From Bacteroidota bacterium (GTDB taxonomy: Bacteria; Bacteroidota; Bacteroidia; Chitinophagales; Chitinophagaceae): 33,296 nt of DNA. The stretch's first letter is position 1, and each line of letters opens with the position of its first letter. The DNA is taken from contig JAUZOA010000066.1 of assembly GCA_030706685.1 (NCBI GenBank), positions 1-33,296 on the forward strand. Reading direction: 5' to 3'. Shown here in pieces: positions 20,466-30,200 of the stretch. Below the pieces are notes generated by a model. That model searched no databases, was not told the origin of the DNA, and saw nothing but the letters and a program-made list of their open reading frames with translations. The translations under genes and the position numbers were made by a program.

Positions 20466-21164
20466 TCACTCCACCCATCCCAAATACATACTCACCGGCA
20501 TCATAGCAAATACAGTTGAAATAATGATAGCAAAAGCAATACCGGCTGTCCTGGCAATTACCAGGTAGCGCTGGTTGCTTACGCCGATCGTTCTGAATGC
20601 GCTTTGAAAACCATGTACCAGGTGCCAGCAAAGAGAAAAACAGGCGAAGACATATACGATTACTACCCACAATTCGGAAAAAGTCTCTTTCATTAACGCA
20701 TATAAATTATGAACCTCTTTACCATCGCTGTTCGGAAGAACCATCGGCGTTTCATGCACACCTGTGAATCTTGATGGTATCCAGAAATGATACCAGTGAA
20801 TGATAAAGAATAATAAAAGAATAGTGCCCAGCAATCCCATACTCCGGCTGTACCATCTGCTGCCTTTATTTCCCAGGCTTACCGTGTACCCGGTTTTTCT
20901 ACGGCTGCGGTTGGAAAATTCGAGCACATAACCCTGGATGATATGGATAAGAATACCGGCGAACAGGCCTACTTCAAGCACCCGTATCACGACCATAGAA
21001 CCCATGAAGTGGGCGGCCGTATTGAACATTACGCCATTATCATTTGCCCAGATACAGGCATTGATACCCGCATGAACGACTAAAAAAGAAATGAGAAACA
21101 AACCCGTCAATGCCATTACTAATTTCTTTCCAACCGAAGATGTGAAAAATTCAGACCATTTCAT
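20466..21164 (-). CDS. sdhC: Succinate dehydrogenase cytochrome b558 subunit
   Basis: This 232-residue membrane anchor has five predicted transmembrane helices, binds two b hemes and reduces menaquinone. It begins MKWSEFFTSSVGKKLVMALTG, in two parts, the usual start of the b558 family. Candidate axial His residues lie in LVVHAGIN, ILIHIIQGY, IIHWYHFW and CWHLVHGFQSAFRTIG. The ATG at 21164 is chosen over a TTG two codons upstream. A -7 element at 21216-21223 implies a leader of about 45 nt, so this is the promoter-proximal gene of sdhCAB. An open frame at 20428-20670 on the same strand is an out-of-frame shadow of its 3' end. Confidence 0.95.
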   Translation of the reverse strand: MKWSEFFTSSVGKKLVMALTGLFLISFLVVHAGINACIWANDNGVMFNTAAHFMGSMVVIRVLEVGLFAGILIHIIQGYVLEFSNRSRRKTGYTVSLGNKGSRWYSRSMGLLGTILLLFFIIHWYHFWIPSRFTGVHETPMVLPNSDGKEVHNLYALMKETFSELWVVIVYVFACFSLCWHLVHGFQSAFRTIGVSNQRYLVIARTAGIAFAIIISTVFAMMPVSMYLGWVE

Positions 21165-21215
21165 AGACAATCAAAGAGGGGTGAATAATGTGCTCCACAA
21201 AAATCCTTTGGATTG

Positions 21216-21264: not shown

Positions 21265-21828
21265 TCAGGCAAGTCTTGCCTTTTGCTCATTATCAATTTT
21301 TTTAAATAAATGAAAAGGCTTATAGGTTCGCCAATTATCCAGTTCCATTAATTCGATATAGCGGTCGAGATGGGCCTTCCGGAAATCATACTGGGATTGC
21401 TCCGGCATATTCAGGCATACCACCCAGCCACCCTCTTCGCTGGTCTCTTCATATAATTCCTGGTAATACTCGCTGTCACTGCTATGAAAATTCAATACAT
21501 TCTCCCCTACCAGTATGAATTTATGGATCCCGTCATACATAAATTTTTCCAGCACTTCGCGTTTCAGTTCCATGATATCATTTTCCACGGCGTCATTCCA
21601 TTCCCCCATTAATTCAATAATGGCATATTTCTCCTCGTAATCAGCGATCAAAACTTTCAAGTAAAGAGTCCGGCTGCCAAAATCATCCCATTGCGGATGG
21701 ATATAATAATTATAAACGGTATGCGTATATTCAAATTCAGAATAAGATCGTCCGTAGAAGGGTGATAAAACATCTTCTTCGCTTACATAAATGTGACGCC
21801 AGTTATAAAAAGGTTCCAGGTTATGCAT
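21265..21828 (-). CDS. Unrecognised acidic cytoplasmic protein
   Basis: This 187-residue protein has no signal peptide or membrane segment. It is acidic and rich in Tyr, Trp and Glu (EPFYNWRHIYVSEEDVLSPF, HPQWDDFGSRTLYLKVLIAD, then YELY-type repeats and EETSEEGGWVVCLNMPEQ). The frame is open for another 26 codons upstream to 21906, but an exact -7 promoter element at 21844-21851 lies inside that extension. The extension (MICKAFLKNAIDKSWG...) is also basic and unlike the rest, so the ATG at 21828 is chosen. It lies between thrC and sdhC on the same strand with 94-170 bp gaps and probably has its own promoter. I do not recognise a domain or catalytic motif. It is probably a lineage-specific Bacteroidota protein. 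Confidence 0.8.
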   Translation of the reverse strand: MHNLEPFYNWRHIYVSEEDVLSPFYGRSYSEFEYTHTVYNYYIHPQWDDFGSRTLYLKVLIADYEEKYAIIELMGEWNDAVENDIMELKREVLEKFMYDGIHKFILVGENVLNFHSSDSEYYQELYEETSEEGGWVVCLNMPEQSQYDFRKAHLDRYIELMELDNWRTYKPFHLFKKIDNEQKARLA

Positions 21829-21843
21829 CGTGTTTCTCCCCCG

Positions 21844-21851
21844 CAAATATA
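21844..21851 (-). promoter_or_regulatory. -7 promoter element that decides the start of the 21265-21828 gene
   Basis: The minus strand reads TATATTTG, an exact TAnnTTTG match. It predicts a transcript start near 21837-21838, only ~10 nt before the ATG at 21828. A longer protein starting at 21906 could not be made from this transcript. No -33 TTTG is seen. Confidence 0.5.
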
Positions 21852-21998
21852 AGAAACGACCCCACGATTTGTCTATGGCATTTTTTAGAAAGGCTTTACA
21901 AATCAAAGGGGTTCTTTGTATATTTTCGCCCGGGGGAGAAAAGAAATTTAACGCAAATAAAATCTTCCTTTTATCCCTGTGGATGCCCCTGCTCCTTC

Positions 21999-23291
21999 CT
22001 AAAGCAAATAATTTTTTAATTCTTCGCAGGCAGGCTTCATTTTTATACTTATTTTTTCGCTCTTCATGATCTCCTGTACCGTTATGGGCATATCAACTTT
22101 TTTGCCCGTATATTTTTCCACTGCTTCCGGGAACTTGACCGGGTGGGCTGTTTCCAGAAAAATACCTTTGGTCCCCTCATGATCTTCCAGCCATCTTTTT
22201 AAAGCTAGCCACCCTACCGCACCATGCGGGTCGGGAATATAGTTATAGCGGTGATATAGGTCGCTGATAGCAGCAATCGTTTCTACGTCAGAAATACTGA
22301 CAGCACTCATCATTTTTTCCAGCGCAGGAAACTGGTGATTGAATATCTCCAGGATGCGGATAAAATTACTCGGGTTACCCACATCCATTGCGTTCGATAA
22401 AGTAGGTACCGCTTTCTTTGATTCAAACTTTTGAGTTCTCATGAATTCCGGGATCACATCATTGCTGTTGCAGGCTGCAATAAAATGCTGTACCGGCAAT
22501 CCCGAATGAAATGCGAGCAGACCGGCGCAAATATTTCCGAAATTGCCGCTGGGAACACTGATAACCGGGGGGTTGTTTTTATCCGGCCATTGCTTGTAGG
22601 CAAAGAAATAATAAAATTGCTGCGGCAGCCATCTTGCTACATTGATCGAATTAGCGGAAGTCAAAAACCGTTTCTTCTTTATTTCATCATCAATAAACGC
22701 GTTTTTCACCATTTGCTGGCAATCATCAAAAGTTCCTTCGATCTCGAGCGCATGGATGTTTTTGCCTAAAGTGGTCAGTTGTTTTTCCTGGACGGGGCTC
22801 ACTTTGCCGGAAGGATACAATATCACTACTTCTATCCCGTCTACATTATAAAAACCACTGGCTACCGCCCCGCCGGTATCACCGGAAGTAGCTACCAGCA
22901 CAGTCACTTTCTTATCAACGTCTTTTACAAAATAACCGAGACAGCGGCTCATGAATCTCGCGCCGATATCTTTAAACGCCAATGTGGGTCCGTGAAAAAG
23001 CTCGAGCGAGAAAACAGATTCATCCAACCGGATAAGAGGAATGGGGAAGCTGATCGTTTCTTTCACTATTTGCATCAGCTTATCGCCGGGTATGGACTCG
23101 CCGGTATAAGGCATTATTACCCTGGAAGCGATTTCTTCATCAGAATATTTTTCCATATTGCTGATTAAATCAGGGTCAATGACCGGGATTTTTTCAGGAA
23201 AATATAACCCTTTATCAGGCGCCTGTCCGTTGATTGTTGCTTCCCTAAAATCAACTGCGGGAGATTGTTGATTAGTACTATAGTATTTCAT
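21999..23291 (-). CDS. thrC: Threonine synthase
   Basis: This 430-residue PLP enzyme converts O-phosphohomoserine to threonine, the last step of the pathway. The N-terminal part MKYYSTNQQSPAVDFREA is typical of the longer threonine synthase class. The PLP Lys lies in FHGPTLAFKDIG (about residue 107). ATSGDTGGAVASGF and SVPSGNFGNICAG are the substrate- and PLP-phosphate-binding loops. The C-terminal ETAHPVKFPEAV is conserved. Two ATGs are two codons apart; the second (23291) gives the usual MKYYSTN start, while the first (23297) abuts a hairpin. It is the last gene of thrABC, 138 bp after thrB. Confidence 0.96.
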   Translation of the reverse strand: MKYYSTNQQSPAVDFREATINGQAPDKGLYFPEKIPVIDPDLISNMEKYSDEEIASRVIMPYTGESIPGDKLMQIVKETISFPIPLIRLDESVFSLELFHGPTLAFKDIGARFMSRCLGYFVKDVDKKVTVLVATSGDTGGAVASGFYNVDGIEVVILYPSGKVSPVQEKQLTTLGKNIHALEIEGTFDDCQQMVKNAFIDDEIKKKRFLTSANSINVARWLPQQFYYFFAYKQWPDKNNPPVISVPSGNFGNICAGLLAFHSGLPVQHFIAACNSNDVIPEFMRTQKFESKKAVPTLSNAMDVGNPSNFIRILEIFNHQFPALEKMMSAVSISDVETIAAISDLYHRYNYIPDPHGAVGWLALKRWLEDHEGTKGIFLETAHPVKFPEAVEKYTGKKVDMPITVQEIMKSEKISIKMKPACEELKNYLL

Positions 23292-23296
23292 ATCCA

Positions 23297-23314
23297 TCTC
23301 CGCTATAGCGGAGA
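23297..23314 (-). repeat. Short hairpin directly before thrC (CCGC-type palindrome)
   Basis: TCTCCGC, loop TATA, GCGGAGA is a perfect 7-bp stem that can zip further through the self-complementary loop. Its 3' edge overlaps the A of the upstream thrC ATG (23297) and is 5 nt from the chosen ATG. A stem here could limit ribosome access to thrC. It is one of three similar hairpins on this strand. Confidence 0.7.
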
Positions 23315-23429: not shown

Positions 23430-24356
23430 CTACTCATCACTCACTATCTCCACGCCTTTCTTGTTTATTGTAGTCACATAGGTATTATAAGCTATGCCGG
23501 TCCTGTCATATACTTCTTTCATTACCTGCTCTGTCGCTTTTGCTGCTTTTTCACTACTGCTCAGCATAAATATGGATGGCCCCGAACCGGAAATACCGCC
23601 GCCCAATGCCCCCGCTTCTTTACAATTTGTTTTTATTTCATTAAACCCGGGGATCAGGATACTTCTTACAGGCTCAATGATCACATCTTCCAGTGAACGG
23701 CCTATCAAACTATGGTCATTTTTTAAAAAACCCGTTACCAGACCCGCAATATTTCCCCATTGCCGGATTGCATCTTTCAGCAAAACCTGTTTCCGCAATA
23801 TCTGCCGGGCATCCGATGTACGTACTTCTATTTGCGGATGCACTACTGTCACATACAGATCAGGAGAAGGAATAGCAATGATATCGAGCGGGTGAATACT
23901 CCTGATCAAACTAACACCTCCCAAAATGCAGGGAGCGATATTATCGGCATGCTTCACGCCGGAAGCCAGTTTTTCTCCGTTCATGGCAAACTGTACGACT
24001 TCATCAGAGGAAAAAATATTTCCAAGTAAATAATTGGCTGCTACCGCGGCGCCGGCCGCACTGGCGGCGCTGGAACCTATGCCGCTTCCGGGCTTGATAT
24101 GTTTTTCAATTTCAACTTCAAAACCAATTGTATTGTTCATCTTCTCCATTATGGATAATAAAACCACGCCCGCTACGTTTTTTTCAGGATCTGTGGGCAG
24201 ATTAAACTCGTCCTTATTCCTGATCACCACTTTGGGTTCGCTCAACAGCTTTAATTGCATGATATCACAGGGCTCATTCAAGGCCATTCCAAGAATATCG
24301 AATCCGCAGACAAGGTTAGCCACCGTAGCAGGACATCTTACTTTTATATTTTTCAT
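23430..24356 (-). CDS. thrB: Homoserine kinase
   Basis: This 308-residue GHMP-family kinase phosphorylates homoserine to O-phosphohomoserine with ATP. The N-terminal VRCPATVANLVCGFDILGMA is motif 1. KPGSGIGSSAASA (88-100) is the glycine-rich ATP-binding motif 2, and LGGGISGSGPSIFML near 257-271 is motif 3. Length is usual. It starts 15 nt after the thrA stop, so the two are cotranscribed. The 138-bp gap to thrC holds AT-rich sequence and a hairpin but no gene. Confidence 0.96.
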   Translation of the reverse strand: MKNIKVRCPATVANLVCGFDILGMALNEPCDIMQLKLLSEPKVVIRNKDEFNLPTDPEKNVAGVVLLSIMEKMNNTIGFEVEIEKHIKPGSGIGSSAASAAGAAVAANYLLGNIFSSDEVVQFAMNGEKLASGVKHADNIAPCILGGVSLIRSIHPLDIIAIPSPDLYVTVVHPQIEVRTSDARQILRKQVLLKDAIRQWGNIAGLVTGFLKNDHSLIGRSLEDVIIEPVRSILIPGFNEIKTNCKEAGALGGGISGSGPSIFMLSSSEKAAKATEQVMKEVYDRTGIAYNTYVTTINKKGVEIVSDE

Positions 24357-24371
24357 CTTAGATTCTGCATT

Positions 24372-26819
24372 TTATAAGTTACCCGCTCTTATGATATCCG
24401 CAAATACGCCACTGGCTGTGACATCCGCTCCGGCGCCTGCTCCTTTTACCACTAAAGGTTGCTCCCGGTAACGATCGGTATAAAATAAAACCACGTTATC
24501 CTTTCCATATAAATGATAAAGATCATGTTTCGGGTCAATATGCTGTAAACCTACTGAGGCTTTGCCATTATTATAGGAGGCAACAAATTTGAGCTTTGTA
24601 CCCTTATCAGTTGCTTCGGCATAAAGTTTTTTAAAATGATCTTCCATTTTTTTCATTTCTGAATAAAATATTCCAAGATTACCGATAAGCATCAGGGGTT
24701 CGGGCATAAATGAATTGTTAACAATATCTTCCATTTCTATTTTCTCTCCTGCCTCACGGGCCAATATCATGATCTTCCGCATTACATCTGTACCGCTCAG
24801 GTCAAGCCGCGGATCGGGCTCAGTATAGCCCTCATCCTGCGCCTGCTTTACTACTTCAGCAAATTTTCTCGTACCATTATAATTATTAAAGACAAAATTC
24901 AATGTACCGCTCAGTACAGCTTCTATGCGATGAACCTTATCGCCGCTGCGCACCAGGTCATTCAATGTAGCAATCACCGGCAAACCTGCACCAACATTGG
25001 TTTCAAACAAGAACTGGCAATTGAATTCTCTCGCGAGGTCTTTCAGTTTTTTGTAATTCTCATAGGCTGAAGAAGCAGCAACCTTATTACAGGCTACCAC
25101 TGAAATACTCTTTTTTAATAACTGATCATAGACTGAAGCGACTTTCTCGTTGGCCGTTATATCCACAAAGACAGAGTTGCGGAGATTCCGGCTGATGATT
25201 TCTTCTGTAAATTTTTGCAGATCGGCCGGAGCGGCTGCCTCTAATTTTTCCTTCCATTGGTTGATAAGGATGCCTTCTTCATCCAGCAGCATTTTACGGC
25301 TATTGGTGATACCGACGATCCTCACCTGCAATTTCATCTGTTCCTGCAAAAAATGGACTTGCTGTTTTAACTGCTCAAGCAGTTTAGTACCTACGTTTCC
25401 GGTGCCCACGATATAAAGGTTCACCTGCTTGTAAGTTGTTTCAAAAAATTCTTCGTGCAGGACATTGATAGCCTTGCGTACGTCCTTGGTGGAAATAACA
25501 GCAGAAATATTTTTCTCCGACGATCCCTGGGCGATAGCCCGGACATTGATACCATTTTTGCCCATGGCGCTGAACATACGGCCACTGATACCCGGGTGGC
25601 TTTTCATATTCTCCCCTACTAATGCTACAATAGAAAGTTCTTTTTCAATCTTAAGCGGTTCCACTTTTTGCAAAGCGATTTCATTGGCAAATGCCGAATC
25701 CACGGCAAGCTTAGCCTGTTCTGCCGATGATGCATCAATACCTACACAAATGGAATGCTCGGATGAACTTTGGGTAATCAGGATCACATTGATCTTTTCA
25801 TTGCTCAACGACTCGAACAGCCTCCTGGAGAAACCGGGAATACCGATCATACCGCTTCCTTCCAGGCTGATCAATGAAATATTATTGATACTGGAAATAC
25901 CCCTGACTATATTCCCGTTGCGGGTAGCGGCGGATTCTATCAGTGTTCCTTCGTCTTCCGGTACAAAAGTGTTTTTGATCCATACAGGTATATTTTGATT
26001 CATTACCGGCTGGATAGTCGGCGGGTAAATGACTTTGGCGCCAAAATGAGAAAGTTCCATAGCCTCCTGGTAAGAGATATGCGGGATGATCCGCGCATTG
26101 TTTGTCAATCTCGGATCCGCCGTCATCATACCGCTTACATCGGTCCATATCTCCAGTGTGTCCGCATTTAAAGCAGAGGCAATGATAGCGGCTGTATAAT
26201 CTGAACCCCCTCTTCCCAGCGTTGTCGTGACTCCCTTTTTATCGCTTGCAATAAACCCGGGTATTACAAACAGGGAAGAGTCCTGCGATAAAAAGAATTC
26301 TTTCATTTGTTTATTTGTCACTGTAAAATCAACCTCGGCAGCATTGAAGTTTGAATTAGTCAGGATAAGCTCCCTCGCATCTTTCCAGGTATTGTCCATA
26401 CCCTCCGATTGAAATTTTGCGGAAATGATGCGGGATGAGATCCATTCCCCGTAGCTGCTGATCCGGTCTTTTGATCTCGGTGTCAGTTCACCCAACAGAT
26501 AGATACCACTGCAGATATCTTCGATCTCGTTGCAGGCAGTTTTTACGAGGCTCAATACCTGGCTCTGGCGGGCTACAGGTATTAACTCTTTTACTGTTTC
26601 CAGGTGCCGCTGTTCGATAGCAATCAGTCTTTCATTGAACAATTCATTTCCTTCAGCAGCGAGGGTAGCGGCATCCAGTAACATATCTGTTATCCCTCCC
26701 AGTGCTGAAACAACCAAAACCGTTTTATCTTTTAGAATTGATTTTTTTACAATAGTGACCACCTTAGTGATATTCTCCGCGTTGGCGACCGAAGTGCCGC
26801 CGAATTTTAAGACCTGCAT
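24372..26819 (-). CDS. thrA: Bifunctional aspartokinase / homoserine dehydrogenase
   Basis: This 815-residue fusion enzyme catalyses the first and third steps of threonine synthesis. The aspartokinase domain (1-~290) has VLKFGGTSVANAENI at the N-terminus, TTLGRGGSDYTAAIIA and EIWTDVSGMMTADPR. Paired ACT domains (~310-450), with GSGMIGIPGFSRRLFE and GENMKSHPGISGRMFSAMGK, are the likely site of threonine feedback. The homoserine dehydrogenase domain begins near 467 with the NAD(P) motif IVGTGNVGTKLLEQL. It continues with TNVGAGLPVIATLNDL, VLSGTLNFVFN and SGTDVMRKIMILAREAG, and ends in VVKGAGAGADVTASGVFAD. It is the first gene of thrABC, preceded by a leader with a Thr/Ile-rich short frame (26923-27015). 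Confidence 0.97.
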   Translation of the reverse strand: MQVLKFGGTSVANAENITKVVTIVKKSILKDKTVLVVSALGGITDMLLDAATLAAEGNELFNERLIAIEQRHLETVKELIPVARQSQVLSLVKTACNEIEDICSGIYLLGELTPRSKDRISSYGEWISSRIISAKFQSEGMDNTWKDARELILTNSNFNAAEVDFTVTNKQMKEFFLSQDSSLFVIPGFIASDKKGVTTTLGRGGSDYTAAIIASALNADTLEIWTDVSGMMTADPRLTNNARIIPHISYQEAMELSHFGAKVIYPPTIQPVMNQNIPVWIKNTFVPEDEGTLIESAATRNGNIVRGISSINNISLISLEGSGMIGIPGFSRRLFESLSNEKINVILITQSSSEHSICVGIDASSAEQAKLAVDSAFANEIALQKVEPLKIEKELSIVALVGENMKSHPGISGRMFSAMGKNGINVRAIAQGSSEKNISAVISTKDVRKAINVLHEEFFETTYKQVNLYIVGTGNVGTKLLEQLKQQVHFLQEQMKLQVRIVGITNSRKMLLDEEGILINQWKEKLEAAAPADLQKFTEEIISRNLRNSVFVDITANEKVASVYDQLLKKSISVVACNKVAASSAYENYKKLKDLAREFNCQFLFETNVGAGLPVIATLNDLVRSGDKVHRIEAVLSGTLNFVFNNYNGTRKFAEVVKQAQDEGYTEPDPRLDLSGTDVMRKIMILAREAGEKIEMEDIVNNSFMPEPLMLIGNLGIFYSEMKKMEDHFKKLYAEATDKGTKLKFVASYNNGKASVGLQHIDPKHDLYHLYGKDNVVLFYTDRYREQPLVVKGAGAGADVTASGVFADIIRAGNL

Positions 26820-26850
26820 GTATCCTGATTTATTGATTAAGAATGAGTAA

Positions 26851-26933
26851 GCTGATAAGCAAGATCATTTTTTGATTTATCAGCCAAAGCCCAGGGTATA
26901 ATATGGAGTATTTCAATCCGCTTTAGCGGATTG
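26851..26933 (-). promoter_or_regulatory. Candidate attenuator structures in the thrA leader
   Basis: Two hairpins lie between the leader peptide's Thr/Ile codon run and thrA. The first (26914-26933) is a perfect 8-bp stem, CAATCCGC and GCGGATTG, with loop TAAA that contains the leader stop codon. The second (26851-26884) pairs GCTGATAA with TTATCAGC, with an inner ATCA/TGAT stem, and is followed by a moderately T-rich run (TTACTCATTCTT). A third small stem, GGCAAC/GTTGCC (26962-26977), lies inside the leader frame. A ribosome stalled on the Thr run would cover the 5' arm of the first hairpin. Neither downstream hairpin has a classical long T tract, so whether one terminates transcription is uncertain. 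Confidence 0.5.
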
Positions 26934-27015
26934 TAGTTGTAATCGTGATAATAGAAGCCAAGGCAACAGGCGTTGCCGGAGAGGAAAAAACCTTATGACT
27001 GTTAGTATTTATCAC
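26923..27015 (-). CDS. thrL: thr operon leader peptide
   Basis: This is a 30-codon frame starting with GTG at 27015, roughly a dozen nt after the predicted transcript start. It ends at a TAA (26925-26923) in the loop of an 8-bp hairpin. The last nine residues are IITITTTIR, encoded by ATT ATC ACG ATT ACA ACT ACA ATC CGC, so four Thr and four Ile codons fall in nine. The whole peptide has six Thr and five Ile. An Ile/Thr run just upstream of thrA is the hallmark of ribosome-mediated attenuation, as in enterobacterial thrL. The rest of the peptide is unremarkable. The start is uncertain: the frame is open further upstream, but no ATG is present. The symbol is by analogy. Confidence 0.62.
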   Translation of the reverse strand: MINTNSHKVFSSPATPVALASIITITTTIR

Positions 27016-27031
27016 TTGTTTGAATAGAGCT

Positions 27032-27061
27032 GCAAGATAACGAAGAATTCGTGTAAACAAA
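27032..27061 (-). promoter_or_regulatory. Promoter of the thrABC operon
   Basis: On the minus strand a -33 TTTG (27061-27058) is separated by 18 nt from TATCTTGC (27039-27032), a -7 element with one departure from TAnnTTTG. Spacing is as expected for the Bacteroidota housekeeping sigma factor. The transcript would start near 27025, giving a leader of ~205 nt before the thrA ATG. Confidence 0.6.
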
Positions 27062-27206: not shown

Positions 27207-30200
27207 ATGAAGCCATTTGCCTTTATCACACCTGCTCTGTTAGTCCTTCAATTATCTTTTTTTGATGCCAGTTCTCAATGCCTGACACCTTCTGATAATG
27301 GTGACACCCTGACGCCGGTCATTAACAGGATGTATACGTACGGCCCCTATGGCGCATCGCCTAATTTTAACTTCAGGCAATATGTTTACAGATCGGCCAT
27401 CTATGGGAATACTATGTATATCGGTGGAGGCTTTCTGAATATCGGACCCAATACCGGGACAGGGGTGATAATGGATCAAAATGCAACACAAATAATCAGC
27501 CCGAAAAAATGGAGAATAAATGGTCCCGTTTTTACCTCGTTAGCTGATGGCGCGGGTGGTTATTACATCGGGGGCATATTCAACCGTGTGGGTGATCTTG
27601 AATGTTATAACCTGGCCCATATTAACAGCAACGGAGAGCCTTATAACTGGACGCCGCAGGTCAATGATGTTGTACAGACCATGGTTATATATAAAGACAC
27701 ACTTGTAATCGGGGGTAGTTTCGGTACAGTGGACGGTCAAACAAGGCATGGCATTGCAATGTTCGATATAAATGCGGGATCTGTTTTACCTGCCTTATCG
27801 TTTCAGAGCGCACTGGTAAGCGGAACAGTGATCCATACTTTTGAGGTACTGGACAGTGTTTTGTATGTCGGTGGCAAATATGATGTCTTTAATGACTACG
27901 GTTCTTTTTATGCAATCAACCTGAATACAGGAGTTCCTAGTATTTTGCCGGCAGCTTATCAAATGACGGATGTATATGCCCTGAGTGTCAGCGATAACAA
28001 AAGAAGAATTTATATAGGGGGGAGTGCAATAGGCAGCAACGCCTCCAGCAACGGTTTTTGCATGGATACCTATAATGGCGCACTTCTTTACAAGATTGAT
28101 ATTGGAATACAAAGTAATTCCGATAATGCAGCTATATACAGTATAAAATCGTATGGAAAAGATGTATTTGTAGGCGGCCTTTTCAATTTTGGTATAATCA
28201 ATGGCCATAGTTTTACTCAAAAAGGAATCGTGGCTTTTGATACAACAACCGGGGTAATCCGCAATTATTTGAATAATTGCGATGGGTTTATTTCCTGTAT
28301 CCGGGGCAATAATGGTCTCATATATATGGGAGGAGAGTTCACCACAATCGGGGGTCAGAATAAAACAAATTTTGCATTATTTGATACATCCTCGCTGGTC
28401 ATAACTTCCCCTAATTCTCTCTCCGTGTCCGACCAGGTCAAAAGTTTTTCTTTTAGTGGCTCAACTATGTTTGCAGGCGGTTATTCTCAAAGCTGGGGCT
28501 GTGTCTCAAGAAATGGATTAGCCGCTTTCGATATGACTACAGGTGAAATAAAGCCCTGGCAGCCCCCGATTACAATGTATGAACTGGATGAGATGAAGGC
28601 AAAGGGAGATACGATCTTTATGGCCGGTCATTTCAGCCCGGGAGGTGCTTTCGTGGCACTGGATGCAATTACCGGTAATCCTTTTCCATCAGCGACTTTA
28701 AACAACACGGGTCATGACCTCCTATTTGATGGAGATAATTTATATGTAGGTGGTGCATCAGGTCATGCCAATAATGGGAATATAGTCAAGGTGTCACTTT
28801 CCAACCTGGCTGAGATAACTTCATGGGCCCCCAATCCCCAGTTTAATGTAGTATCCCTTCAAAAAAATGGAAATAAAATATATGCTACCGGACAAGATGG
28901 GAATTCCATAGGTTATATCGCCGAAATCACTGATAATGGCACTACAGGCAGTATTACCAGGCTTACCAACTTATCTGCGAATGGTGGCAATATTAATTCG
29001 TTGACCAGGACTGCGCTGGCAGGAAATAAATTATTCATAACGGGCCTGTTCACCAATATAAAAGGAACTCCAAGACACTGTTTCGCCGCTATTAATATTG
29101 ATGACTGGACAGTTTCACCGATAGATGTTAAAGTCCAGGACATGTCACCCTACGGCGGTTTAGAGTTCCTGAACGGGCAGATTTATGTGTTTGGCAGATT
29201 TGACATGATCAATAACCAGTTACATAGATACTTTGCAGTTATTGATACAACTGTTGGAGCTGTTTTTCCGGACAGGCTTCATTTGAATAATGATTTACCA
29301 TTTGGCTACTCCCTGGATGATTTTGCAGATGCGGATTTGAAATTAAATACGTTTCAGTTATCTGGCAACAATCTCCTTCTTGGGGGGAATTTCAGGAATG
29401 TCAACCAAAAGATGTTCCCAAGTCTTGCAAAAATATCCATGGCTACAGTTGGATCCTCTCCTGCAACCCCACAGGGAATAGCCGGTGCTGATACTCTCCA
29501 GTGCCCCAGTCAAAGCAATTTATATACAGTCACCAATTCTGATCCCGAACTCAGATACGCCTGGTTTTATTCGGGTAGCGACGTTACAATAAGAAATAAT
29601 GGGACCGATTCAGTTTTACTGGATGCAGGTCCGTTAGCCACTCCCGGCCAATTGAAAGTAATTGCAATTAATGAATGTGGCAAAAGCGATACAGCATTTC
29701 TGGCTATTTCAATAAAAACCCTTGAGCCTGCCGTGAATGCTTCTAATATTGTACTTATCAGAAGAACGGATACTACAGCCACTGTTCATTTCACACCTGG
29801 TAATGGTGCAAGAAGAGTGATTCTTGTCAGGGCTATTAACCCTGTAAGCGATTATCCCCAGGACACCCATGAATATAATGCCGATAGCATTTTTGGAAAT
29901 GGCTTTGACCTTGGCAACAATACTTATGTGGTGTATAAAGGCACAGGAGATTCGGTAGCTTTAAAAGGTTTGGCCCCTGCAACATTATATAATCTGACAG
30001 TTATTGAATTTAATGGCATCAATGAAAACACCAACTATTTAATTGCCGGCAATCCATCTTTCAGTTTTACCACCTACGCAACCCGGCCTTCACTCCAGGC
30101 AGATAATATCGTTATCACCAATGTGACTCAAACAAGCTTAACGATCAATTGCACCCCGGGAAACGGAACAGGGCGGCTGGTAGTAATAAGGCCGGCTCTG

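Follow-up and report, generated by a model that had tools for sequence, protein, structure and literature searches.

A candidate threonine- and isoleucine-sensing leader upstream of thrABC in Chitinophagaceae, with relatives elsewhere in the Bacteroidota

Background

The leader of the enterobacterial thr operon (Rfam Thr_leader) is an attenuator with a U-tract terminator and an antiterminator hairpin. In the Bacteroidota, leader-peptide attenuation is known in principle from the Bacteroid-trp leader RF01692, which is named in PMC2864571. Strong clues for leader-peptide attenuation have been described upstream of amino-acid biosynthesis operons of Flavobacterium psychrophilum (PMC9723704), and Bacteroides thetaiotaomicron has long 5' UTRs with short ORFs that are reminiscent of leader peptides (PMC7366714). 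A literature search of titles and abstracts found none that describes the thr leader reported here. The words 'threonine' and 'thrA' are absent from the main text of PMC9723704; a thr leader may already be listed in its supplement.

The window analysed here is a stretch of 33,296 nt from a member of the Chitinophagaceae (contig JAUZOA010000066.1 of assembly GCA_030706685.1), in which an earlier note had proposed a leader-peptide attenuator upstream of thrABC. The locus resembles the enterobacterial one in that a short ORF rich in Thr and Ile codons lies directly upstream of thrABC.

The thrABC locus and its leader ORF

The features referred to below are the following, with the basis of each in brackets.

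24372-26819, minus strand: thrA, fused aspartokinase-homoserine dehydrogenase (Pfam)
23430-24356, minus strand: thrB, GHMP kinase (Pfam), homoserine kinase by context
21999-23297, minus strand: thrC, threonine synthase (Pfam)
27058-27061, minus strand: candidate -33 promoter element TTTG (sequence; modest family signal)
27032-27039, minus strand: candidate -7 promoter element TATCTTGC, a weak match (18 nt from TTTG)
26923-27015, minus strand: leader ORF with GTG start, 30 codons and TAA stop (sequence and relatives)
27009-27015, minus strand: 5' arm of P0, GTGATAA, which includes the start codon (by eye, swap tests, MFE)
26990-26997, minus strand: site that corresponds to E1, degenerate in the window, CATAAGGT (many relatives have CATATYAY there, at codon 7)
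26962-26977, minus strand: P1 hairpin, GGCAAC-GCCT-GTTGCC, inside the leader ORF (fold of the window; coevolution in relatives)
26945-26951, minus strand: 3' arm of P0, TTATCAC, in the first part of the Thr/Ile run (by eye, swap tests, MFE)
26929-26952, minus strand: run of Thr/Ile codons from -9 to -2, reading I I T I T T T I (frame and family tally)
26914-26933, minus strand: P2 hairpin, with the stop codon in its loop (folding and covariation)
26889-26905, minus strand: E2 motif, CATATTATACCCTGGGC here, consensus CATATYAYCnnnTGGGC (tally of 75 leaders)
26882-26891, minus strand: P3, a short hairpin, GGC-TTTG-GCT, into which the end of E2 extends (pattern count in 75 leaders)
26851-26884, minus strand: P4, a second hairpin, GCTGATAA...TTATCAGC, of variable sequence and sharing bases with P3 (window sequence)

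The leader frame runs from a GTG at 27015, which is 196 nt upstream of thrA (start at 26819, minus strand), to a TAA at 26925-26923, and encodes the peptide VINTNSHKVFSSPATPVALASIITITTTIR. The 30-codon GTG frame with the C-terminal end IITITTTIR upstream of thrABC can thus be read in the window just as the earlier note had claimed. Of the -33/-7 promoter that was proposed with it, the elements and the 18-nt spacing are present; the -7 element is weak, scoring 4/6 against TAnnTTTG, which we take to be the consensus, and the signal over the family is modest, with a score of at least 8/10 in 35 of 74 leaders versus 16% of shuffles. Elsewhere in the window, ORFs of 234, 213 and 141 aa (20466-21170, 21265-21906 and 27795-28220, minus strand) have no Pfam match at E<=0.001; the 234-aa ORF adjoins genes with succinate dehydrogenase/fumarate reductase domains.

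Distribution of the leader

We searched for thrA in 59 genomes and examined the upstream regions of 30 thrA loci, and the leader is evident at 23 of these, among them L017 with a 17-codon version. A covariance model of P2 plus the downstream part (R1, 60 positions), built from 23 leaders, has 26 matches at E below 1e-6 in the 59 genomes, one per genome and each upstream of thrA by coordinates; 11 weaker matches were inspected and all look like chance. The set contains 36 members of the family, 29 with a fused thrA, and the 3' part of the leader (R1) is found in 26 of the 29. The family genomes with a fused thrA and no element are G031, in which the contig ends 108 nt upstream of thrA, and G013 and G020, in which no leader is visible upstream of the fused gene. 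None of the seven family genomes that lack a fused thrA has an R1 match at E<=0.001. The distribution is patchy, because eight genomes from other families of the same order (G036, G042, G046, G051, G052, G053, G055 and G056) have a fused thrA without a convincing R1 match. Over the sampled genomes of the family, the element is present in 171 of 294, and in 67 of 101 genera.

The leader or its P2/E2 was also found at 76 of 80 named thrA loci, from records titled Chitinophagaceae or its genera, wider Bacteroidota groups or, once, just bacterium. An ORF scan identified 73 of these and the model a further three (L188, L189 and L191); L184, L186 and L190 show no leader and L124 is cut by a contig end. 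In L189 the ORF pick is in the wrong frame, yet the element is present. In L188 (about 1330-1440) the Thr/Ile run is degenerate (VIKKQHRSSIDVIAIANSAMSTAIRTVSTL) while P2 and E2 are retained, making this locus a natural test case.

In 296 genomes of the phylum, R1 gave matches in 27 at E<=0.01. Of the 23 loci inspected, 16 lie upstream of thrA with a leader and seven (L108, L109, L113, L115, L116, L118 and L119) resemble chance. With a cut-off of E<=0.05, a broader model (R2), made from 34 leaders after three of 37 segments (L146, L015 and L192) had been removed, had matches in 51 of 392 genomes, including three weak, uninspected matches in one further family. All 21 R2 loci that were inspected are upstream of thrA and 20 have a leader ending in Thr/Ile; in L217 the script chose the wrong frame and the leader is visible in the sequence. 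The inspected R2 leaders come from f23 and f24, two families of the same class besides the Chitinophagaceae (f24 looks like Flavobacteriaceae), and from f42, a family of another class, and most f42 and f24 loci have the P2 core ACCCCTTAGGGG with a TAG stop. The occurrence of the element at other genes was considered and rejected, as the non-thrA matches inspected look like chance; the second match in G147 is inside a coding sequence.

Conservation of the Thr/Ile run and of the stop-codon hairpin

The tallies that follow are for 75 leaders, which remained when near-duplicates by similarity were taken out of 99; L184 and L189 had been removed earlier as wrong-frame ORF picks. Among the frame tallies are three CTG starts and a non-stop (L023), due either to errors in ORF picking or to read-through of P2. 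The share of Thr and Ile at codons -9 to -2 is 83-93% in frame versus 0-4% in the other two frames, and is down to 56% at codon -10 and 33% at codon -11. Of 623 Thr/Ile codons counted over the final twelve positions, one is the Ile codon ATA.

P2 (CAATCCGC-TAAA-GCGGATTG) has a stability of -12.1 kcal/mol and a fold z of -6.9 against 200 dinucleotide shuffles, none of which folds as well. The perfect 8-bp hairpin that the earlier note described, with the stop codon in its loop, is therefore borne out at 26933-26914. The longer stretch 27033-26881 folds at z -2.76, with 2 of 200 shuffles equally good. A perfect P2 stem is found in 73 of the 75 leaders, and in 67 the stop follows the final base of the 5' arm by 1-4 nt, with two more (L139 and L146) by eye. 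The stop is outside the P2 loop in L142, L167, L181 and L023, although in L023 the position is not a stop.

The covariation score of P2 is 0.279 versus 0.143 in shuffles, with 0 of 500 as high and 91% of cells paired, and in a cross-family set it is 0.240 versus 0.121. Pair types are no more numerous than in the shuffles (226 of 500 as high in the first set and 500 of 500 in the cross-family set), and changes on both sides are matched by 24 of 500 shuffles in the first set and by 413 of 500 in the cross-family set. Among 437 window pairs in the 75 leaders, P2 is the second strongest coevolving pair (z -5.8). None of these 437 pairs stood out as a second partner for either arm of P2, in a test that can miss short or shifting helices.

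The earlier note had suggested conservation of the run and covariation of the hairpins as a check on its reading. For P2 the paired changes are above shuffles, and the run, the start, the stop hairpin and these paired changes are all kept in the family, with related leaders elsewhere in the phylum. Because of this conservation we regard a Thr/Ile-sensing leader as well supported by the sequences.

Pairing at the leader start and within the ORF

P0, P1 and E2/P3 are parts of the leader that are absent from the earlier note. In P0, which was first seen by eye, the leader start region is paired with the upstream half of the Thr/Ile run, and in relatives its arms are AATAATAGTGG/CCACTATTATT or AATAATGGAAA/TTTCCATTATT. 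Native arms were compared with arms swapped between species in three sets, kinship being ignored in each: -12.1 versus -9.3 kcal/mol in 20 leaders, -10.1 versus -8.4 kcal/mol in 74 leaders that overlap these 20, and -12.8 versus -9.5 kcal/mol in 20 leaders from other families. In each set 0 of 20000 permutations was as good. The first test used 20 of 26 leaders, L002-L006 and L025 being out as same genus, and the later tests left out L017 and L217 (wrong frame). P0 is a signal at the level of the set, the native pair being in the best 5% of swaps for only 4 of 20, 11 of 74 and 3 of 20 leaders, and single window pairs reach only z -2.6. By subgroup, the permutation counts are 8 of 20000 for ten Flavobacteriales-like leaders and a borderline 944 of 20000 for ten f42 leaders. 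No clear P0 was found in L010, L017 or L019. The P0 arms of L226 and L239 (both f24) differ between the two loci, and by eye both pair well. P1 is the strongest coevolving pair of all (z -6.8, among the 437 window pairs in 75 leaders).

The E2 element and the hairpins P3 and P4

The distance from P2 to the start of E2 is 6-10 nt in 73 of 75 leaders, and the ATAT bases of E2 are A in 75, T in 74, A in 74 and T in 72 of the 75. Measured from the first base of the stop, it starts at 17 nt in 37 leaders and at 16-21 nt in 69, the distance in the window being 20 nt. With species-swapped controls, no partner for E2 was found among the UTR, the start region, P1, the run, P2 and the thrA start, none being significant. 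L072 (in G019) has a longer spacer, with E2 200 nt from thrA. The core of E2, CATATYAY, recurs in the ORF at codon 7 as E1, where +18 is the best-matching position in 36 of 75 leaders as a raw count. E1 and E2 presumably resemble the 3' end of 16S rRNA, a possible mimicry. A T-box-like, tRNA-binding reading of E2 was rejected, there being no Rfam T-box match and no fixed base before GGG; this ungapped column has T in 42, G in 21, C in 11 and A in 1 of the 75 leaders.

The P3 pattern GGC-N3..10-GCY follows E2 in 68 of 75 leaders versus 2.8 expected in shuffles, and its inner pairs change together in examples (GGCA/TGCT, GGCT/AGCT, GGCC/GGCT and GGCTTC/GAAGCT, with ACCAC/GTGGT in one). The second hairpin of the earlier note, our P4, is present at 26884-26851 and small hairpins are frequent at its place (57 of 74 leaders fold lower than the shuffles, the means being -4.0 and -2.8 kcal/mol), but its sequence is not conserved and by eye is kept only in part in relatives of the same genus. 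A coevolving window pair at the position of P4 has z -3.6, and swapping fixed halves between leaders gave no significant result (1140 of 5000).

Other leaders in the same genome

The genome of the window has two further leaders of interest. Upstream of hisG on contig C156 (L248, about 1218-1340), the His leader MIQYTHTHHHHLTHAVGCDGIM is followed by AAGGCTTACCGGATCCGGTAAGCC and a T tract and looks like a classical attenuator. On contig C212 (L251, reverse complement, about 1618-1800), a leader ending in SIIIVVVIIISSSTGGGA is followed by CCCGCCTCCAAAAGGCGGG and a T-rich tail; this Ile/Val-run leader precedes an ilvE-like ORF and ilvD and looks like a classical branched-chain attenuator. Since the his and ilv leaders have U-tract terminators, each being followed by a GC-rich hairpin with a T tract, leader attenuation as such is probably in use in this genome.

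The C/G ratio at the thr locus is 1.7 in the leader, 2.5 from about 60 nt after the stop to thrA, and 0.86 in thrA. A Rho signature was not accepted from this ratio, since coding bias and a low G content ahead of genes might also produce it.

Discussion

The leader described here is probably cis-acting, with a translating ribosome that would report charged tRNA-Thr and tRNA-Ile to thrABC and an output that is transcriptional and non-classical. When Thr and Ile are plentiful, the ribosome would clear the run and leave, P0 would close over the start codon of the leader and P2 would form; RNA polymerase, pausing at or near P2-E2-P3, would then mostly end transcription, either alone or through Rho. 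When Thr or Ile is short, a ribosome halted on the run would lie on or beside the 3' arm of P0, so that the leader start would stay open. If halted near the end of the run the ribosome would also cover the 5' arm of P2, and the polymerase would proceed into thrA. Such an output would be transcriptional without the U-tract terminator or the alternative hairpin of the enterobacterial thr attenuator. We infer the direction of control from biosynthetic logic; the output step, too, is an inference.

The geometry of stalling takes the size of the ribosome footprint into account. Thr/Ile codons are equally common at -9 to -7 and at -6 to -2, and the direction is therefore not fixed by the anatomy. 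A ribosome halted at -9 to -7 would leave P2 free, which would be a difficulty for pure P2 occlusion and is why P0 is placed first in the mechanism. In most leaders about 7 nt lie between the end of P2 and E2, and this spacing resembles that of hairpin-stabilised pauses or intrinsic termination. It points to an action of P2-E2-P3 on RNA polymerase, possibly together with Rho. In the mechanism of the earlier note a stalled ribosome blocks P2 as a terminator; the Thr/Ile-sensing leader is well supported from that proposal, but the terminator role of P2 is not, as P2 has no U tract in the window and no second partner for it stood out.

Other explanations have to be weighed against this one. The leader could be a classical attenuator, working as in enterobacteria with P2 (or P4) as a weak intrinsic terminator. 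Under one scoring, a hairpin with a T-rich tail, of -6 kcal/mol or better and at best a weak terminator-like site, is found in 30 of 75 thr leaders versus 3 of 75 shuffled ones, 21 of the 30 being P2-based by our own reading; the small hairpins at the place of P4 and the T-tract his and ilv leaders of the same genome point in the same direction. However, no terminator-like site is found in the window between 26700 and 27200, in agreement with the earlier remark that the hairpins lack long T tracts, and the Bacteroid-trp controls are stronger, with a strong terminator in 10 of 10 at -12 to -19 kcal/mol. Nor did a second partner for the P2 arms stand out, and the conservation of E2 would be left unexplained, so that we consider a classical attenuator unlikely. 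Weak terminators are also consistent with control of translation, as raised in the earlier note, where the state of the leader would open or close the thrA start or feed ribosomes to it by reinitiation, and the thrA start lies mostly 65-110 nt after E2. Pairing between leader windows and the thrA start, however, reaches at most z -2.3 in 437 tests (sd 1.2), and the spacing in L072 is far for reinitiation. That no such pairing stood out favours an output in transcription over one at the start site, and control at the thrA start seems to us quite improbable.

E2 is almost invariant, has no pairing partner that we could find, and its core recurs in the ORF as E1, all of which would suit binding sites (CATATYAY) of a trans-acting protein, with the leader peptide as a secondary input. 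The in-frame Thr/Ile run and P0 nevertheless need translation as an explanation, and E2-like sites are not in excess genome-wide (110 matches with up to 2 mismatches versus 139 for the reversed pattern); we give such a protein little credence. The promoter match in the window is weak, as might be expected of chance hairpins beside a chance Thr/Ile-rich frame with no regulatory role, but conservation across families and in a second class, the frame bias and the paired changes make this scarcely credible.

We therefore return to a leader with a transcriptional, non-classical output. The conserved fold without the usual terminator suggests that in many Bacteroidota threonine is probably sensed by ribosome stalling, along a route that is not the textbook one. 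More speculatively, the leader may represent an ancient class of Bacteroidota attenuator that does without both the U-tract terminator and the antiterminator hairpin. The position of the ribosome would be read out by a P0 lock on the start codon and by P2, the latter lying at an almost constant distance from E2/P3 as a sequence-specific element for polymerase pausing or termination; we regard this broader idea as a possibility somewhat short of probable. Such a leader may be the means by which many environmental Bacteroidota control threonine synthesis as a branch of their amino-acid metabolism. To our knowledge pausing and termination signals have been little studied in the Bacteroidota, and E2, which is near-invariant in the family, recognisable in another class and partnerless, may expose one. 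Because the same genome carries his and ilv leaders that end in ordinary terminators, the two kinds could be tested side by side.

Comparison with known systems

The window has no Rfam match at gathering score, and Thr_leader is not among its matches at E<=10; 14 other loci likewise have no Rfam match at gathering score. The locus is thus not a member of the enterobacterial type of thr attenuator, either by model match or by a U-tract terminator in the window. It has the general features of a leader-peptide attenuator, namely a run of end-product codons in a short ORF upstream of a biosynthetic operon and conserved structure (P0, P1, P2 and P3) where the position of a ribosome can affect it. 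The window differs from the enterobacterial thr leader in that no U-tract terminator was detected and no antiterminator pairing stood out among the 437 window pairs, and is set apart from it by the stop codon in a hairpin loop, by P0 and by the conserved E2/P3.

Within the phylum, the Bacteroid-trp leader RF01692 is similar in being an amino-acid leader peptide upstream of a biosynthetic operon, but the 10 examples examined end in a strong intrinsic terminator and have no E2 by eye. It was rejected as a relative, with matches in 0 of 59 genomes at E<=0.001, that of the window included. The passages on the F. psychrophilum attenuators in PMC9723704 name no thr leader, stop-codon hairpin, P0 or E2. 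The his and ilv leaders in the genome of the window are similar as run leaders, upstream of hisG and of the ilvE-like ORF with ilvD, and differ from the thr leader by their GC-rich hairpins with T tracts. The general principle of leader-peptide attenuation is known, and it is the output step, probably other than the textbook terminator, that is the interesting part.
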